Shown here piece after piece: positions 6,375-42,860 of a DNA stretch of 44,084 nucleotides (position 1 is the stretch's first letter; every line of letters begins with the position of its first letter). Under the pieces are notes generated by a model. That model was not told where the DNA came from, did not search any database, and was given only the letters and a program-made list of their open reading frames with translations. The DNA lies in NCBI GenBank assembly GCA_021787445.1, contig JAJYLV010000010.1, positions 1 through 44,084 on the forward strand, read 5' to 3'. The position numbers and the translations under genes were made by a program. The DNA comes from Chloroflexota bacterium. Lineage in GTDB: Bacteria; Chloroflexota; Limnocylindria; P2-11E.

Positions 6375-7726
6375 CCGATCGGGAGCTTCTCGCGGATCCG
6401 CTCCGCCAGCTCGGCGATGGGGACGCGCACCTGCGCCATCGAGTCGCGCTCGCGGATCGTGACCTGCTTGTCCTCGAGCGAGTCGAAGTCGACGGTGACG
6501 CACAGCGGCGTGCCGATCTCGTCCTGCCGGCGGTAGCGCCGGCCGATCGACTGCGCCTCGTCGAAGGTGCTCATGAAGTGCGGCCGCACCGCCGCCCACA
6601 CCTCGCGCGCGAGAGGCGCGAGCTTCTCGTTCTTCGAGAGCGGCAGGACCGCGACCTTGTACGGGGCGAGCGCGGGATGGAGCCGCAGGACGACGCGCGT
6701 CCCGTCCTTGTCGGGCTCCTCGTCGTACGCCGCGAGAAGGAACGCGAACGTCCCGCGGTCCGCGCCGCCGGAGGTCTCGACGACGTTCGGGATGAACTTC
6801 TCCTGGGTGAGATCGTCGAAGTACGACAGGTCCTTGCCGGAGTACTCGCTGTGCCGCCGCAGGTCCCAGTCGCCCCGGTCGTGGATCCCCTCGAGCTCCT
6901 TGAATCCCCCGAAGGGGTAGTCGAACTCGATGTCGACGGCGCGCTTCGCGTAGTGCGCGAGCTCGTTCGGCGCGTGCTCACGGAAGCGCAGCTTGCCCTC
7001 GGGGATGCCGTACGCCGTGTACCAGCGCATCCGCTCGGCGCGCCACTCCTCGAACTTCGCCGCCCCTTCGCCCGGGTGGACGAAGTACTGCATCTCCATC
7101 TGCTCGAACTCGAGGGAGCGGTAGAGGAAGTTGCCGGGGGTGATCTCGTTGCGGAACGCCTTCCCGATCTGCGCGATGCCGAAGGGGATGCGCCGCCGCG
7201 TCGCCTGCTGCACGTTCTCGAAGTCGACGTAGATCCCCTGCGCGGTCTCCGGGCGTAGCCACGCGACCGAGGCCGTGTCCTCCATCGGCCCGACGAACGT
7301 CTTGAACATGAGGTTGAAGCGCCGCGGCACCGTGAGCGTCTTCTTCCCGCACACCGGGCACCCGAGCGACGAGACGTCGACGTCCCCCGCGCGCCAGGCG
7401 TCGATGAGCCGCTCGCCGCCGGGCAGGTCGTCGATGCGGAAGCGGTGCTTGCACTCCCGGCAGTCGACGAGCGGGTCGATGAAGTTCTCGACGTGCCCCG
7501 ACGCCTCCCACACCCGCGGGTGCATGAGGATCGCGGCGTCGAGGCCGACGACGTCCTCGCGCAGCTGGACCATCGCGCGCCACCACGCGCGCTTGACATT
7601 GTTCTTGAGCTCGACGCCGAGCGGGCCGAAGTCCCACGTCGACCCCGCTCCGCCGTAGATCTCGCTCGACGGGAACACGAATCCGCGCCGCTTGGCGAGC
7701 GAGACGATCTTCTCGTTCAGGTCCAC
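6371..7726 (-). CDS. glyS: Glycyl-tRNA synthetase, dimeric eukaryotic/archaeal-like type
   Basis: Charges tRNA-Gly. It is the single-chain class II enzyme (alpha2 type, 451 aa), not the alpha2beta2 form. The class II motifs are visible: [18 protein letters not shown] at the N-terminus, [21 protein letters not shown] (motif 2) in the middle and a C-terminal anticodon-binding domain ending in [17 protein letters not shown] plus CPVCGKK pair forms the inserted zinc knuckle. GTG at 7726 is preceded by a long GGAGGAGGAG ribosome-binding site. The gene is downstream of recO and separated from it by a palindromic element; its stop overlaps the next gene. Confidence 0.96.
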
Positions 7727-7757
7727 TGTCGAGGCTCCTCCTCCTCCTATGCGTCCG

Positions 7758-7929
7758 GCAGCGCGAGGCGGGGCGACGCACCCGCTGGCGGCCTCGGCGT
7801 CTCGCTCCGGGGCCTGCTCCCCCCGGCCCATTCCTCGTGCTCGGTGTCCATTGCGCTGGCCGGGGCGCGGTCGCAGGCCCCTCGCGAGATCGCCTTCGCC
7901 CGCCGCGACATCGCCCCGCCTCGCGCTGC
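7758..7929. repeat. Palindromic interspersed element, copy A (19-bp perfect terminal inverted repeats)
   Basis: The recO-glyS gap contains a 172-base element bounded by a perfect 19-base inverted repeat, 7758-7776 against 7911-7929. Just inside the arms, 7775-7805 matches 25477-25507 at 30 of 31 bases, and 7891-7926 matches the right half of copy B closely. Copy A carries about 90 extra bases between these shared halves. No transposase is nearby and no target duplication is obvious. It could act as a hairpin in the recO-glyS transcript, as a processing site, or be a non-autonomous mobile element. Confidence 0.75.
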
Positions 7930-7982
7930 GGTGCCGCTGCTGGTCACGATGGCGTCGCCCGGCGTCGCGCTGAGGGCCCGCG

Positions 7983-8768
7983 TCAAGAGACGGTAACGCT
8001 CGAACGCCGCGGGAGGCGCGCCAGCTCGTCGATGAGGCGCGCCGACGCGATCTCGCGGTCGAGCACGTTCTGGAGGAACGCCCGCAGGTGCCGCTCCAGC
8101 TCCTGCTCGAGCGCCGCGTCGATCCGCAGCTTCGCCGCCGCCGCGAAGTCGCTCGACAGCAGGTAGCGGAGCGACTTCAGCGCGCGCACCGACAGCGCCG
8201 GGAGTCCGCTGATCGAGCGGTCGATGCACTCGACGCACACGACGCCGCCGTCGAGGGGGCTCCATCCGTTCGTCGCCTCGCGCAGCGCGCCGCCGCACCG
8301 CGCGCAGGCCAGGAGCTCGGGGCGGAAGCCCGTGCGGTCGAGGAGGTGGAGATCCCACCAGCGGCACACGAAGGACGGGATGTGGCCCACCTCGAGGTGG
8401 CGGAGCGCGGTCTCGACCAGCTCGAAGACGGGCGCCGCCGGAGCGTGCTCCGCCGTCGAGCGGTCCGCGATCTCGGCGATGTACCAGGCCGCCGCGATGC
8501 GGTCGAGGTCCTCGCGGAGCAGGCGGTACGTCGACCGCGACTCGGCGCCGGTGAGGACGTCCAGCTCGCGGCCGCGGGCGAGCTGGAACGTGGCGTGCGA
8601 GAGCGGCTCGGCGTACCCCGCGAGGCGGCTGGTCGGGCGCCGGATGCCCTTGGCGATGGCCTTCACCTTGCCGAAATGGCGTGTGAGGAGCGTGAGGATG
8701 CGGTCGGCCTCGCCGAGATCGAGCGTCTTGAGGACGATGGCCTCGGCCCGGTACGTGCGAGATGCCAT
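7983..8768 (-). CDS. recO: DNA repair protein RecO
   Basis: Recombination mediator that loads RecA on SSB-coated DNA with RecR. The 261 aa fit the family. The N-terminal OB-fold is recognisable ([20 protein letters not shown], then [17 protein letters not shown]). The zinc knuckle CARCGG...CVEC is near residues 148-170, followed by the helical C-terminus. ATG 8768 has no Shine-Dalgarno sequence but lies 8 bases after TAGCAT. The gene is divergent from the polyprenyl synthase with only 49 bases between start codons, so both promoters share the gap. Confidence 0.95.
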
Positions 8769-13122: not shown

Positions 13123-13494
13123 TCAGGCCGCGGAGGTCTTGCCTCCGCCATCGGGCCGCTTTCCGCGGCGGATCAGCTCCGCCACGCGTCGACCGCCCTT
13201 GCGCCCGAGCGCGGCGTACCCCTCGCTCCCGAGCTGGGTCTTGCGCGCCTCGCCGCCGCGTCGTCCGAGCTCGGCGTAGCCGGTGCGGCCGAGCTGCGTC
13301 TTGCGCGCCTCACCGCCCTTGCGCCCGAGCTTCGCGTAGCCCTCGGGGCCGAGCTGACCTTTGCGCGCCTCGCCGCCGCGACGGCCGATCTCGCGATAGA
13401 AGTCGGGCCCGTGCTTGTGCGCGGTGTTCTTCCCGCCCTTCTGACCCGCCTGACGCACGGTCATGTCGCCGTCGTCGCGCTCTTCGGCAGCCAC
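13123..13494 (-). CDS. KGG-repeat general stress protein (GsiB-like)
   Basis: A 123-aa, strongly hydrophilic, basic protein built from four roughly 24-residue repeats with the core GRRGGEARK-x-QLG-x-xGYAELGRKGG, matching the KGG stress-protein family (GsiB/con-10-like). Such proteins are thought to be disordered protectants induced by desiccation or starvation; the molecular role is unproven. GTG 13494 is chosen because TAATCT lies 7 bases upstream; an in-frame ATG at 13464 is the alternative. An imperfect palindrome GGTGAC...GTCACC sits just upstream and may regulate it. The gene has its own promoter-like region between ispE and tRNA-Gln. Confidence 0.85.
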
Positions 13495-22974: not shown

Positions 22975-24293
22975 TGCGTTGACGGCGCCGGCGTCGGCGT
23001 TGCTGATGGTCTCGTGGACCTGATAGTGAGCGTCACGCGTGCCGGCTGCAGCGACTGGACCGTCGTGCCCGCCGGAGTGCGCAGGCTGACGTCGATCGGA
23101 TACGTGCCGGGACCCTTGCCCGAGGCGTCGACGAAGGCGCCGACCGCGTCCGTGCCGAGGCCATTGAGCGTCGGCACGCTGCCGGCGAGGAGGACGTCGA
23201 CGGTCCCGCGGTCGAGCTCCGCCGCGAGGCCGGGGCCGAGGTTCGCGACCTGGATGGCGACGAGCGGGAACGGCCGCGTCCCGCTGAGCGCGACGACGTC
23301 GATGGTCACCGTCGCCTGCTGCGGTCCGAGGACCTCGACGCCCTGTGGCACCGCGAGCCCGACGACGAACGTCTTCGCGCCGGCCAGGCCGCTCACGTCG
23401 ATCGCCTGCGTGTCGACGTGGGCGAGCGCGGCGACGGCGGCGCGGTCGCCCGCGACGGTCGCGCTCACGGGGTCGGCGGCGATCTGCGAGATCCAGTAGC
23501 CGGGAGCGACGGAGCCGACCACGTGCCAGAGGATCGGCAGCGCGCGCGTCGTCGCGGAGGACAGGACGGGGACGCTCACGTGCACCGACACCGGATCGAC
23601 CTCGACGCCCGCGACCTGCTGGCCGGACGCGTCGACCGCCTCCGGGCGCACGTCCTGCGCGAGATCGACCGGAGCGTCGCCGAACCGCACGGTGGCGAGC
23701 ACCGTCGCGACGGACGCGACGGCGCTCTCGGGGCCGGAGACGGTCACTTCCTGCGGCCGGAACGTCGCCGGCGCCGCCTGGAATCCGGCGGGGGGCGCGT
23801 TCGCGAACCTCGCTTGGACCGGGAGCGTTCGCTGCGCCAAGCGCTCGAAGCGCACCGAGACCGTCTCCGGCGACACCTGCGCGACGTGCACGCGGTCGTC
23901 GCTCACCCTGACGACCACCTTCACGTCCTGGGCGCTCGAGCTCGGTGCGAGCGACGACAGGTCGATGGTGGCCCTGATCTGCTGGGGCCCCACGGATCGG
24001 ACGGCATCCTCGGGGCCGCGCAGCTTCACCGCGACGTCCCCGAGCTGTCCGGTGAGGACGTACCCCGACGGGACCTCCGGCCGGTCGACCGGGACGCGCC
24101 CGGCGTACGCCAGGGTCACGTCCGGCGGAGGACCGGCGTAGATGGCGGCGATCCACAGCAGCAGCGCAACGGCGAGCGCGGCCGATTTGAGGCCGACGTC
24201 GCCGAGGAACAGCCGGCGAAGGTCGATCCGCCGAACGTCGATCCGCCGCCACAGAGCGAGAGCGACCTCGCTCAGGGGCGCCCGGATGATCAT
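22971..24293 (-). CDS. cdaR: YbbR-domain regulator of diadenylate cyclase
   Basis: A membrane-anchored extracytoplasmic protein of 440 aa. One transmembrane helix lies near residues 35-53 ([19 protein letters not shown]), followed by four beta-rich YbbR repeats, recognisable from recurring patterns such as [13 protein letters not shown] and [13 protein letters not shown]. The C-terminus is a Pro/Thr-rich tail. In Firmicutes CdaR modulates CdaA activity. ATG 24293 overlaps the cdaA stop (ATGA). Confidence 0.9.
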
Positions 24294-25120
24294 GCCGAGC
24301 GCTGGCGGAACGGCAGCGGCTGAATGCGGCTGCGCAGGAGCGAGCTCAGGACGCGACGAAGCCTCTCCTCGTCCAGGTTGCCGATGATGCGCCCGTTGCT
24401 CGCGACGGAGATCGTCCCCGACTCCTCGGACACCACGACGACGACGGCGTCGGTCTGGCCGCTGATGGAGAGCGCCGCGCGGTGCCGCATGCCGTAGCGA
24501 TGCGTGGTCCGGTCGCTCGTCTCGTCGAGCGGCAGAAGGCACGCCGCGGCGGCCACGGTCGTCCCGTGAACGATGACCGCGCCGTCATGGAGCGGCGAGC
24601 GCGCCATGAAGATCGACGCGAGCAGCTCCGCCGTGAGCCTGCCGTTCACCGGCACGCCGGTCTCCATGTAGTCCTGCAGGCCCGTCGACCTCTCGATGAC
24701 GATGAGCGCGCCGTTCCCCTGCTGCCGCACGAGGAGCGCCCCGCGCACGATCTCGTCGACCTCGAGGTCCACCTCCGCCTCCGACGTCGGCGCGAGCAGC
24801 CGGTCGAGCGCGCCGAGCCGCCCGAGCTGTCCGAGGGCGCGGCGCAGCTCCGGCTGGAAGACGACGGGCAGCGCGACCACCGCCGCGACCGCGAGGTACT
24901 GCAGTAGGAGCGCGGTGAGCGTGAGGTGCGCCAGCACGGCGATCGCGTAGATCGCGACGAGCACGAACACGCCGAGGAGCAGCTGCACCGCGCGCGTGCC
25001 GCGAATGAGGACGAAGACGTAGTAGATGAAGATCGCGACGAGGATGATGTCGACGACGTTGTTCCACCCGAACGGACGCCCCTGGAGGAGCGTCTGGAGC
25101 AGCGCCTGGATCCTATCCAA
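24290..25120 (-). CDS. cdaA: Diadenylate cyclase CdaA (c-di-AMP synthase)
   Basis: Condenses two ATP into c-di-AMP, a second messenger controlling potassium, osmotic and wall homeostasis. The 276-aa protein has three membrane helices in residues 22-90, then the DAC domain with HDGA (Asp179-Ala181) and GMRHRAA (212-214), the two invariant active-site motifs. The start is TTG at 25120, overlapping the TPR-gene stop by 8 bases; it places the first helix at the expected distance and no ATG/GTG fits better. Confidence 0.95.
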   Translation of the reverse strand: MDRIQALLQTLLQGRPFGWNNVVDIILVAIFIYYVFVLIRGTRAVQLLLGVFVLVAIYAIAVLAHLTLTALLLQYLAVAAVVALPVVFQPELRRALGQLGRLGALDRLLAPTSEAEVDLEVDEIVRGALLVRQQGNGALIVIERSTGLQDYMETGVPVNGRLTAELLASIFMARSPLHDGAVIVHGTTVAAAACLLPLDETSDRTTHRYGMRHRAALSISGQTDAVVVVVSEESGTISVASNGRIIGNLDEERLRRVLSSLLRSRIQPLPFRQRSA

Positions 25121-26057
25121 GGCGCGCCGCCTTCTCGAGGAGCCGCCGCCGCTCCGTCGCGATGTCGTCGCGTCCGAGCGCGTCCGCCACGGTGATGAGC
25201 TCGCGCTCCGCATCGTGCACCGCGATCCCCGACGCGATGAGCTCGAGGAGCAGATCCGACGCCGCCTGGACCTTGCCGACGCCGATGAGCCGGCGCGTCG
25301 CCTCGATCGCGGTGCTCCCCGCCTCCGGATCGCGCGAGCCGATGAGCGCCATGGCGCGCGCCTCGAGATCGATCGGGTCCTCGTGGACCACGATCGGTGC
25401 ACTGTCGAGCGATGGCGCGTCGGAGGATGCGACGCCGGGCGTGTGCGGCCAGCTCGGCGAGGGCGCGGGGCCGGGTGACGCACCCGCTGGCGGGCTCGGC
25501 GTCTCGCCTTCGCCCACCGCGGCATCACCCGGCCTCGCGCCGGCCGGCCCGTCGCGGACCGTCCGCAGCTGAACGCCGACGGAACGCGCGAGCGCGTGCA
25601 GCGCAGGGATCTCGCCGAGCGTCTCGATCGCGTACCGTGTCTCGCCGCGCGCACGGTCGGCGTCGCCCGCCTCCATCGCCCGGTCCGCGAAGCGCTCGTA
25701 CTCCTGCGCCGCCGCGCCGGCGTCGCCGGAGAGCGCGAGCGCCGCCGCGAGGCGGCGGTGCGCCGCGAGGTCGAGCGGGTCGAGCGCCGTCGCCTCGCGC
25801 AGCAGCTCGATCGCGATGCCCCGCTCGTTCGAGCGCGCCAGCGCCGCGGCCCCCTCGCGGAGCGTCGCGATCGCCGCGCCCTTGTCGCCGTTCTCGATCT
25901 GGACGCGCGCCAGCCCGCGGTAGCCACCGTCGGCCGTCGGGAACTTGGTCACCAGGTAGCGGAACTGCTCCTCGGCCTGCCGCAGCTTGCCCGCCTGCAG
26001 GTTCTTCAGACCCGAGGCGAGCGCGACCTTGTAGTTGAAGTCCTGTACGGCCTTCAT
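25113..26057 (-). CDS. TPR-repeat protein upstream of cdaA, carrying palindromic element copy B
   Basis: A 314-aa protein of unknown function with no signal peptide. Residues 10-150 are tandem helical repeats of TPR type (LKNLQAGKLRQAEEQFRYLV, GGYRGLARVQIENGDKGAA, LDLAAHRRLAAALALSGDAG). Residues about 170-225 are a Gly/Pro/Ala/Ser-rich linker, most of it encoded by the palindromic element. A second helical domain (RDPEAGSTAIEATRRLIGVG, ATERRRLLEKAARL) follows. The stop overlaps the cdaA start, so it is translationally coupled to c-di-AMP synthase and may be a scaffold or regulator; that is inference. Confidence 0.8.
   Translation of the reverse strand: MKAVQDFNYKVALASGLKNLQAGKLRQAEEQFRYLVTKFPTADGGYRGLARVQIENGDKGAAIATLREGAAALARSNERGIAIELLREATALDPLDLAAHRRLAAALALSGDAGAAAQEYERFADRAMEAGDADRARGETRYAIETLGEIPALHALARSVGVQLRTVRDGPAGARPGDAAVGEGETPSPPAGASPGPAPSPSWPHTPGVASSDAPSLDSAPIVVHEDPIDLEARAMALIGSRDPEAGSTAIEATRRLIGVGKVQAASDLLLELIASGIAVHDAERELITVADALGRDDIATERRRLLEKAARLG
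25462..25541. repeat. Palindromic interspersed element, copy B (in frame within the TPR gene)
   Basis: This 80-base element has 17-base inverted-repeat arms (25462-25478 and 25525-25541) with one G-T mismatch. It matches copy A on both halves. It keeps the reading frame and encodes GDAAVGEGETPSPPAGASPG in the linker between the two helical domains. Two base pairs of the stem differ from copy A by compensatory changes and a third by a change to a G-T wobble. Confidence 0.75.
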
Positions 26058-26099
26058 GCCCCTAGTCGCTTCGCTCCTCCGGACGTCGCTCGTCCTCGT

Positions 26100-26119
26100 G
26101 CGGGAGCTCCGGCTCCCGC
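26100..26119. terminator. Hairpin at the end of the ribosomal operon (between rpsI and the TPR gene)
   Basis: GCGGGAGC and GCTCCCGC form a perfect 8-bp GC-rich stem with a 4-base loop, 38 bases after the rpsI stop and 43 before the next start. No T-run follows on the minus strand, so the hairpin could be a weak or Rho-assisted terminator, or a 3'-end stabiliser. Confidence 0.45.
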
Positions 26120-26156
26120 TATCGTCCTCGCTAGTCCGTAGTCTCCTCCGTCACTC

Positions 26157-26552
26157 CTAACGCTTGGTGAATTGCGGCGCCTTGCGGGCCCGCTTGAGCC
26201 CCGGCTTCTTCCTCTCCTTCGCCCGCGGGTCGCGCGTCAGGAGGCCCGCCTTGCGCAGGGCCTGGCGGTCCTCGGGGTCCGCCTGGAGGAGCGCGCGCGC
26301 GATGCCGTGGGCGATCGCGCCGAGCTGCCCGTGGTAGCCGCCGCCCTCGACTTTCACCATGGCGTTGAAGCGGCGCGCCTTGTTCGTGACCTGGAACGGG
26401 AGGAGCGCGGCCTCGGCATTGGCGTCCGAGCCGAAGTGATCCGCGATCGGCTTGCCGTTGACGATGACGGTGCCCTCGCCGGGGACGAGACGCACCCGCG
26501 CGATCGCTGTCTTGCGCCGACCGGTGCCCTGGAAGTACGCAGCTGTCTTCAT
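26157..26552 (-). CDS. rpsI: Ribosomal protein uS9
   Basis: 30S head protein whose C-terminal tail contacts the P-site tRNA. The 131 aa are normal. [14 protein letters not shown] at the start, [32 protein letters not shown] in the middle and the KAPQFTKR end are diagnostic; the terminal Lys-Arg is present. ATG 26552 overlaps the rplM stop (ATGA). It is the last gene of the ribosomal run. Confidence 0.98.
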
Positions 26553-38157: not shown

Positions 38158-38828
38158 GCCTTTGTCTTCGCGCCTGTGGCGCGAGCCCTCGATCCGTCCG
38201 CGGCGTCGGCGTTCTCCTCGGGCTGAGCCACGGGACTCCCTTCGGACGATGCGTCCGCGAGCTCACGCTCGGGCTTCGACAGCAGCTCCTCCACGCCCTC
38301 GGTCTTCTCGAGGGCGCGCTCGATGTCCGCGGCCTCCGGCGCGGCGGCGTAGGCCTCACCGACCCGCGACAGGACCTCGACCACCTGCCAGCGCTTCGTC
38401 GCGCTGAACGGGCGGCTCTCCTGGATGCGCACCAGGTCGCCGGCCTTCACGTCGCCGCCCGCGTCATGGGACGCGAAGCGCCGCCGGACGCGGATGACCT
38501 TCTTGTACAGCGGGTGCTCGCGCAGCCGCTCGACCTCGACGATGACGGTCCGCGGCATCTTCGCCGACACGACGCGCCCGACGGTCGTCCGCCGGTGTCC
38601 GCGGTGCGCACGCAGCGACGGCGCGGCCGCCGCGGCGGCGCGTGTCGTGGCCGCCGGTGCCGCCTTAGCGCGCGTCGGGCGCGCGGCCCTCGCACGCGGG
38701 GACGGCGCTGCGGCCTGGCCCTGCGGCGTCCGCGTGGCCGTACGCGCTTCCGGCGCCGTCTTGGCCTTGGTCGCCGTCGTCTTCTTCGCTGCCGTTGTCT
38801 TCTTCGCGGCCGTCTTCTTCTCAGGCAC
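38154..38828 (-). CDS. rpsQ: Ribosomal protein uS17 with long N- and C-terminal extensions
   Basis: The S17 core lies at about residues 76-160: [36 protein letters not shown] and [23 protein letters not shown]. The protein is 224 aa, over twice the usual 80-90. The N-terminus is a histone-H1-like Lys/Ala/Thr repeat ([13 protein letters not shown]) and the C-terminus is acidic and Ala-rich. GTG 38828 overlaps rpmC by 8 bases. The same Lys/Ala repeat occurs at the start of L4. Confidence 0.95.
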
Positions 38829-39027
38829 CCTCGATCTCCCGTTGCCGCTCGAGCGTCAGCGCCCGCGCGATGCGCGCGCGCGCGCGCGTGATGGCCTGCG
38901 TGTCCTTGAGCTGGCGCGTCGCCAGCTGGAAGCGCAGGTCGAGCAGCTCCTGCTTCGCCGTGTCGATCTCCTCTTTCAGCTCCTCGCTGGAGAGGCGGCT
39001 GAGGTCCTTTGTGTCGCGCTTAGGCAC
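38821..39027 (-). CDS. rpmC: Ribosomal protein uL29
   Basis: A 68-aa two-helix 50S protein at the tunnel exit: [31 protein letters not shown], then [22 protein letters not shown] 39027 overlaps the rplP stop by 8 bases and the end overlaps rpsQ by 8. Confidence 0.97.
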
Positions 39028-41985: not shown

Positions 41986-42860
41986 GCGGTCACCTCGGCC
42001 TTCTCCGTGCGGGCGCGCGCCGCGAGGGCGTCGAGCGCGTCGCGGCGGACGATGAGCGTGTCGTGCGTGAGGAGGTCGCTCGTGCGCAGCGTCCCGACGC
42101 TGCGCACGCGCGCGTGCGCGGCGTTCGCCGTGGCGCGCGCGATCTGCGCGTCGACCTCGGGCGTCACGAAGAGGACGCTCCCGGTGTCGCCGATCTTGTC
42201 GAGCCACTCGACGACGGTGCGCGTGCGCGGCGCGCCGTCCTCGAACGCGAGCCCCTCGTAGACGAGGACGCGCCCCTCGCCGGCGCGCGCGGCGAATGCC
42301 TGCGCGAACGCCTCGCGCCGCATCTTGCCCGGCGAACGCTGGGCGTAGCGCCGGCCGTTCGGGCCGAAGACGACGCCGCCGTGCCGCCAGTGCGGTGCTC
42401 TCGTCGAGCCCTGGCGCGCGCGACCGGTGCCCTTCTGGCGCCACGGCTTCGAGCCGCCGCCGCTCACGCGGGCGCGGTTCTTCGTCGCCGCGGTGCCCAG
42501 GTGCGCGTTCGCCGCCGCCGCGGTGAGCGACTGGAAGAGGACGCCCGCGCGGCGCTTGACGGCCGCGAGCGCCTCGGGGAGCGCGAGGTCGCCGCTCACC
42601 GCGCCGCTGCTGTCGATGATCGGCGCGTGCCCCGCCGCCGCGGTCGGCAGCGGACGCGGCTCGGCCTTCGGCTTCGGCGCCGGGGCCTCGCTCTCTTCGC
42701 GCTCGGGCTTCGCCGGGCGCGGCGTGACGGTGCGCGTGGCCGGCCGCGCGACGGCGCGCTTGACGAGCGTCTTCGGCGCGGCCGTCTTCTTGGCCGTCGT
42801 CTTCTTGGCCGCCGTCGTCTTCTTGGCCGCCGGCGTCTTTTCCTTCTCTTCGTCCGCCAT
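41982..42860 (-). CDS. rplD: Ribosomal protein uL4 with Lys/Ala-rich N-terminal extension
   Basis: 50S tunnel protein, 292 aa against about 205. The core starts near residue 82 and includes [39 protein letters not shown], the tunnel loop. The first 70-80 residues are a Lys/Ala/Thr repeat ([16 protein letters not shown]) then a Pro-rich stretch. ATG 42860 is chosen over the in-frame GTG at 42863. A 94-base gap before it is one of the largest inside the ribosomal run. Confidence 0.95.

Follow-up and report, generated by a model that had tools for sequence, protein, structure and literature searches.

The best-known protein-coding palindromic repeats are those of Rickettsia; others occur in Wolbachia, in one archaeon and among intragenic REPs. 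Rickettsia palindromic elements (RPEs; Ogata et al. 2000, 2002, as summarised in PMC2229807, PMC10969869 and PMC3767692) are described as units of 105-146 bp located in intergenic regions and in 19 reading frames, where they generate in-frame fusions with neutral or mildly detrimental effects (PMC2229807), and their insertions at a conserved locus among orthologues have been recorded (PMC3767692). Coding palindromes are also cited for Wolbachia and M. jannaschii (PMC2996958). The GTAG/CGTC REPs (Di Nocera et al. 2013, PMC3733652) lie between convergent or tandem genes less than 20 bp from stop codons and supply stops; conv-REPs are found less than 20 bp from both 3' ends, while intragenic REPs are frequent in DNA replication/repair genes (PMC3733652). 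Our literature search returned no report of protein-coding palindromes in the lineage studied here, and the only Chloroflexota repeats met were the GTAG-23 repeats of Thermomicrobium roseum (PMC3733652).

The window analysed here is a stretch of 44,084 nt from a Chloroflexota genome (G000; 2.51 Mb in 185 contigs, 95% complete, 71% GC). It was compared with Chloroflexota MAGs, of which G001-G004 belong to the same genus and G009 to the sister genus; every genome compared is a draft assembly. An imperfect palindrome, termed copy B, lies inside an open TPR gene beside cdaA and shares its arms with an intergenic unit, termed copy A. Copy B is very probably a member of a mobile, lineage-restricted, dispersed palindromic (REP/MITE-like) family, whose survival inside genes would be limited to flexible spots and a harmless reading phase. 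The features that bear on this interpretation are as follows.

7756..7934, plus strand: copy A, full-length intergenic family member (covariance-model match, E 1.3e-23)
7806..7889, plus strand: apical 84 nt of copy A, missing from copy B (A/B comparison and 14-copy alignment)
24290..25123, minus strand: cdaA (diadenylate cyclase), downstream neighbour of the TPR gene (Pfam DAC 8.6e-39, CdaA_N 7e-10)
25113..26057, minus strand: host gene, TPR protein of 314 aa with two helical domains and a disordered linker at residues 166-223
25462..25541, no strand assigned: copy B, the compact palindrome, read in frame by the TPR gene as residues ~173-199
25463..25507, plus strand: left arm of copy B (GCGCGGGGCCGGGTGACGCACCCGCTGGCGGGCTCGGCGTCTCGC), sharing 41 of 45 positions with copy A 7761-7805
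25504..25540, plus strand: right arm of copy B, sharing 33 of 37 positions with copy A 7890-7926

Copy B and its host gene

A sequence-only reading had described a palindromic element at 25462-25541, keeping the frame of the TPR gene and encoding the peptide GDAAVGEGETPSPPAGASPG in the linker between two helical domains, and the analysis bears this description out in each respect. Codon-usage segmentation, trained on window genes, revealed a single unbroken coding segment (25117-26043) spanning copy B, and the encoded residues ~173-199 include the peptide exactly as quoted. The protein gives two weak TPR profile matches (TPR_16/TPR_19). Its AlphaFold model, calculated from an alignment of three window/relative sequences, displays helices from residues 2 to 160 and 228 to 313, separated by a stretch with pLDDT < 50 (residues 166-223) that contains the residues encoded by copy B.

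A whole-genome search aligned copy B with copy A in two blocks, one of 45 nt with 91% identity (E 9e-12) and one of 37 nt with 89% identity (E 2e-7), and the covariance model of the family described below matched copy B in its own genome as a unit of 83 nt at 25462-25544 (E 2.6e-9). Copy A lies in a stretch, 7725-8010, that is intergenic by codon-usage segmentation, and its ~84 extra nt lie at the apex of the hairpin. At the corresponding position the left and right arms of copy B overlap by the short homology TCGC. Since the 84 nt are absent and TCGC is common to both sides of the junction, copy B likely arose by internal deletion. Folded as single-stranded DNA, either strand of copy B outperforms 200/200 shuffles, with z values of -2.9 and -4.4. 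No Rfam family scored above threshold for copies A and B, and three further element loci gave one match in all, at chance level.

The comparison of orthologous TPR proteins, which the earlier reading expected to reveal an insertion by presence and absence, gave the absence without a clean empty site. The element is absent from the orthologues of G001 (77% identical), G002, G004 and G009, and weak covariance-model matches at the G001, G004 and G009 loci are at chance level. No clean empty site was found among the relatives compared because the linker is hypervariable in both length and sequence: from LRTVR to DLLL it measures 96 aa in G000 and 79-128 aa in the relatives, where it is non-homologous. 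Since those linkers share no homology with that of G000 and are often about as long or longer, insertion and replacement are indistinguishable at this locus. Copy B is compact and most other copies are longer, which would fit a scheme in which the TPR linker DNA is ancestral and the source of the intergenic copies; that scheme is nevertheless very improbable, since no examined TPR orthologue has the element and the relatives carry full-length copies elsewhere.

Several other features were recorded around this gene and along the window. Elsewhere G000 encodes another relative of the TPR protein, diverged to 39% identity (C57:5559-6458, L072). Between rpsI and the TPR gene, at 26058-26160, there is a GC-rich inverted repeat (GCGGGAGCTCCGGCTCCCGC) that is not related to the element. 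Short direct repeats at 38733-38840 and 42768-42860 read as Lys/Ala-rich (AAKKT-like) tails of two genes, and a 60-nt spaced repeat occurs at 13192-13415 in three tandem copies that are 75-77% alike.

Range and hairpin architecture of the family

About 20 copies of the family are present in G000 and 1-9 in each of G001-G004 and G009, the number depending on the search. With copy B as query, about 16 places in G000 were matched at E < 1e-3, and the left/right pair of arms recurs on many contigs. Searching with a full-length consensus yielded 19 pieces for G000, 2-9 for G001-G004 and 3 for G009. Model R1, a covariance model of 177 positions and 47 pairs built from 12 sequences, recognised 17 places in G000, 3-6 in every same-genus relative and 3 in G009, but nothing at E <= 0.01 in any of the remaining 25 genomes; the total of about 20 for G000 adds compact or decayed copies from other searches (DnaX, the DinG remnant and C66). 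A left-arm pattern found 19 matches in G000 and its reversed control pattern 0. The family is thus dispersed and, among the genomes searched, confined to one Chloroflexota genus and its sister genus. The TPR linker is Pro/Ala-rich and the genome GC-rich, so that its resemblance to the repeats could be attributed to convergence, low-complexity linkers rich in Pro and Ala looking alike by chance at 71% GC. This is scarcely credible and is refuted at the DNA level, where 45 + 37 nt align in register at the E-values given above; moreover, the family model matches copy B, the control pattern matches nothing, and the equally Pro/Ala-rich linkers of the TPR orthologues give no match.

The element folds into a long hairpin: GATCAGCGCTCGGCcGGGTGACGCACCC...GACATCACCCGGCCTCGCGCTGATC make up its outer stem, the apex differs in length between units, and a short tail, GGCTNNCGCC, follows on the 3' side. 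Over the 47 pairs, 92.3% of cells are paired and 16 pairs show two-sided changes, while 0/500 shuffles equalled the observed paired cells and covariation. The outer helix comprises 19 pairs (92% of cells paired) and thereby provides terminal inverted repeats, the feature in which the family resembles MITEs. Unit sizes are 46 nt (C60 and G001 C117), 61, 67, 83 (copy B), 95 and up to ~200 nt, the outer stem being common to the units and the apex their variable part. No U-tract follows the stems, and the flanks of the copies are too diverged to reveal target-site duplications.

The habits of the family recall the GTAG/CGTC REPs, as its units are also located between convergent or tandem genes, less than 20 bp from stops, and supply stops, and copies occur inside replication/repair genes, here DnaX and DinG (PMC3733652). 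Such hairpins would be accommodated by a RAYT-driven REP element of the GTAG super-family, although this assignment is improbable. The borders of 29 intergenic copies share no conserved GTAG/CGTC tag; directly at the left border GTAG was seen in a few copies only, where it is in each case a gene's own TAG stop. RAYT-type Y1 transposase (Y1_Tnp, PF01797) is absent from 13 genomes, namely G000 and 12 relatives, with positive controls. Lacking both RAYT and the tag, the family falls outside the REP/RAYT group on the features tested. Its units, at 46-200 nt, are also much longer. CGTC REPs, like the present family, are without a transposase (PMC3733652). The T. roseum GTAG-23 repeats are likewise palindromic and in a Chloroflexota genome but form large clustered, GTAG-tagged blocks, whereas the present family consists mostly of single, dispersed, tag-free units (PMC3733652).

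Mobility and placement between genes

The spacer between the fabH stop and the TTGACA box of mraZ measures 64, 65 and 56 nt in G001, G002 and G007, respectively, versus 245 nt in G000, where it holds a full-length copy of the element (+181 nt). The site is empty in the three relatives and is therefore a clean presence/absence site. In the same spacer (L240, G000 C7) a second, short hairpin unit (GGCCGGATGACGCACCCGGC) lies right after the fabH stop and adjoins the full-length element, an arrangement resembling REP clusters. The C93a and C7 copies are 95% identical although their loci are unrelated. This near-identity and the fabH-mraZ site show that the element spreads to new sites. Some copies are older, as indicated by a site shared between G000 C8 and G001 C115, where the copies are 94-95% identical and the flanks match.

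By codon-usage segmentation the majority of copies reside in non-coding stretches, where they adjoin stop codons and, between convergent genes, often the stops of both. In 33 of 39 cases at tandem and convergent sites, the gene either stops no more than 15 nt from the element or ends at a TGA that the element itself supplies 21 nt from its border; in convergent pairs this usually applies to both sides. Divergent sites account for 1 of about 30. At one locus (G000 C93, L135), an element at 2011-2187 encodes the C-terminus, AQRSAG, of the gene at 1573-2031 and then provides its own TGA as the stop. This gene, known from its ORF alone, resembles methylmalonyl-CoA epimerase, and the element-TGA stop is at the identical place in L138, L153 and L154.

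This placement raises the question of whether the primary role of the elements lies in RNA, as 3' structures that terminate transcripts or stabilise mRNA ends and are kept beside stops by selection, with the in-gene copies as accidents. The abutment on stops, often on both of a convergent pair, the avoidance of divergent sites and the compensatory change in the hairpin are all consistent with such a role, which we regard as possible but doubtful. Against it, only ~20 loci are occupied, the fabH-mraZ copy is not common to G001, G002 and G007, the stems lack a U-tract, and neither copies A and B nor the three tested loci have an Rfam match. In addition, the same placement is reported for REPs generally and is equally explained by tolerance (PMC3733652). 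The RNA-structure explanation and that of a mobile palindrome are not mutually exclusive.

In-frame copies, reading phase and meaning

Family copies are present in frame in several unrelated genes, those for the TPR protein, DnaX, DinG and a membrane protein of G000 (C48, SARAGDVVAGASPARALS). Copies were assigned to genes where one frame runs through the element without a stop; linkers have low codon scores, and a strict threshold on these does not recognise the DinG copies of G004 and G009 or the DnaX copy of G002. In G001, a lexA match (C104) is ordinary conserved LexA sequence and was discounted as a chance resemblance.

In the DinG-type exonuclease-helicase, full-length copies of 172-193 nt occupy the linker between the RNase_T and DEAD domains in G003, G004 and G009. 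G000 DinG retains a shrunken remnant, whose left arm fits the 20-nt arm pattern with one mismatch. The linker comprises 79-83 aa with the element versus 46-53 aa without it in G001 and most other genera. The G002 DinG linker (C30, L174; 78 aa) is long and, like that of G008 (L177; 76 aa), is without a recognisable element; both may represent decayed copies or other expansions. In the element tree the G004 DinG copy groups with another G004 copy, and the DinG copies may reflect vertical inheritance or conversion, both of which are compatible with the tree. In DnaX the element lies in the interdomain linker of G000 (GSETPSRPAGASPARAL) and G002; since the two copies are oppositely oriented, they probably derive from two events in the same linker (the comparison covers genomes other than G001, whose DnaX gene was not found). 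The encoded segments thus fall in unstructured parts, according to AlphaFold for the TPR protein and by interdomain-linker position for DinG and DnaX.

The symmetry of the palindrome matches every phase of one orientation to a phase of the other, which leaves three phase classes. A TGA in the outer stem closes one of them; the two that are open read as Arg/His-rich and as Pro/Ala/Gly/Ser-rich, respectively. The proteome search for the peptide that the sequence-only reading had suggested located it in DnaX and the C48 membrane protein of G000, in DinG of three relatives and in the G000 DinG remnant, with the equivalent phase also in DnaX of G002. All of the about five in-gene events use one symmetry-equivalent phase, whose peptide is Pro/Ala/Gly/Ser-rich. 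The chance probability of such uniformity over about five events is a few per cent, and a non-random reading phase is suggestive only, as chance alone could give it with so few events. The earlier proposal that the element is built to be readable goes beyond these data, given that one phase class carries a stop and another is Arg/His-rich; selection against bad phases would suffice to explain the pattern.

The recurrence of the element in DnaX (twice) and DinG (at least three species) might indicate that the family preferentially enters, or is kept in, DNA replication/repair genes, as described for REPs of other phyla, through spread at stalled forks or through linkers that tolerate or use the element, and that the readable phase is a maintained property. 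We consider this unlikely. Under the mobile-palindrome explanation, the element would be a non-autonomous palindromic repeat, its copying to new sites presumably performed in trans by an enzyme, a nuclease or transposase, with the hairpin as substrate. Selection would leave it mostly just 3' of stop codons, where it is tolerated, and its survival within genes would require both a flexible position, such as an interdomain linker, and the stop-free phase giving a Pro/Ala/Gly/Ser-rich peptide. Copy B would be such a case, its peptide being probably neutral to the TPR protein.

The likeness to RPEs drawn in the sequence-only reading is supported as a mode of action: a palindrome scattered through the genome whose in-frame presence flexible linkers tolerate. 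As the RPE sources describe them, both are palindromes, of ~100-150 bp in RPEs, dispersed in intergenic regions and in frame inside conserved genes, with the encoded segment in exposed, unstructured parts and the same site occupied in orthologous genes. They differ in host, a Chloroflexota bacterium of 71% GC as opposed to an alphaproteobacterial parasite, in the smaller number of in-gene copies found and in the variable apex, with units of 46-200 nt. The palindromic elements of Wolbachia and the coding palindromes of M. jannaschii, by description, are likewise protein-coding and outside Rickettsia, in other lineages. The comparison supports the view that the family works like RPEs; the likeness is one of described habits, and no common descent is claimed.

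A phenomenon known from Rickettsia is hereby extended to another phylum, the high-GC Chloroflexota. The same habits, once more involving replication/repair genes, suggest a recurrent route by which selfish hairpins add segments to proteins, and the DinG genes and fabH-mraZ spacers with and without the element offer independent before/after pairs for movement and peptide effects.
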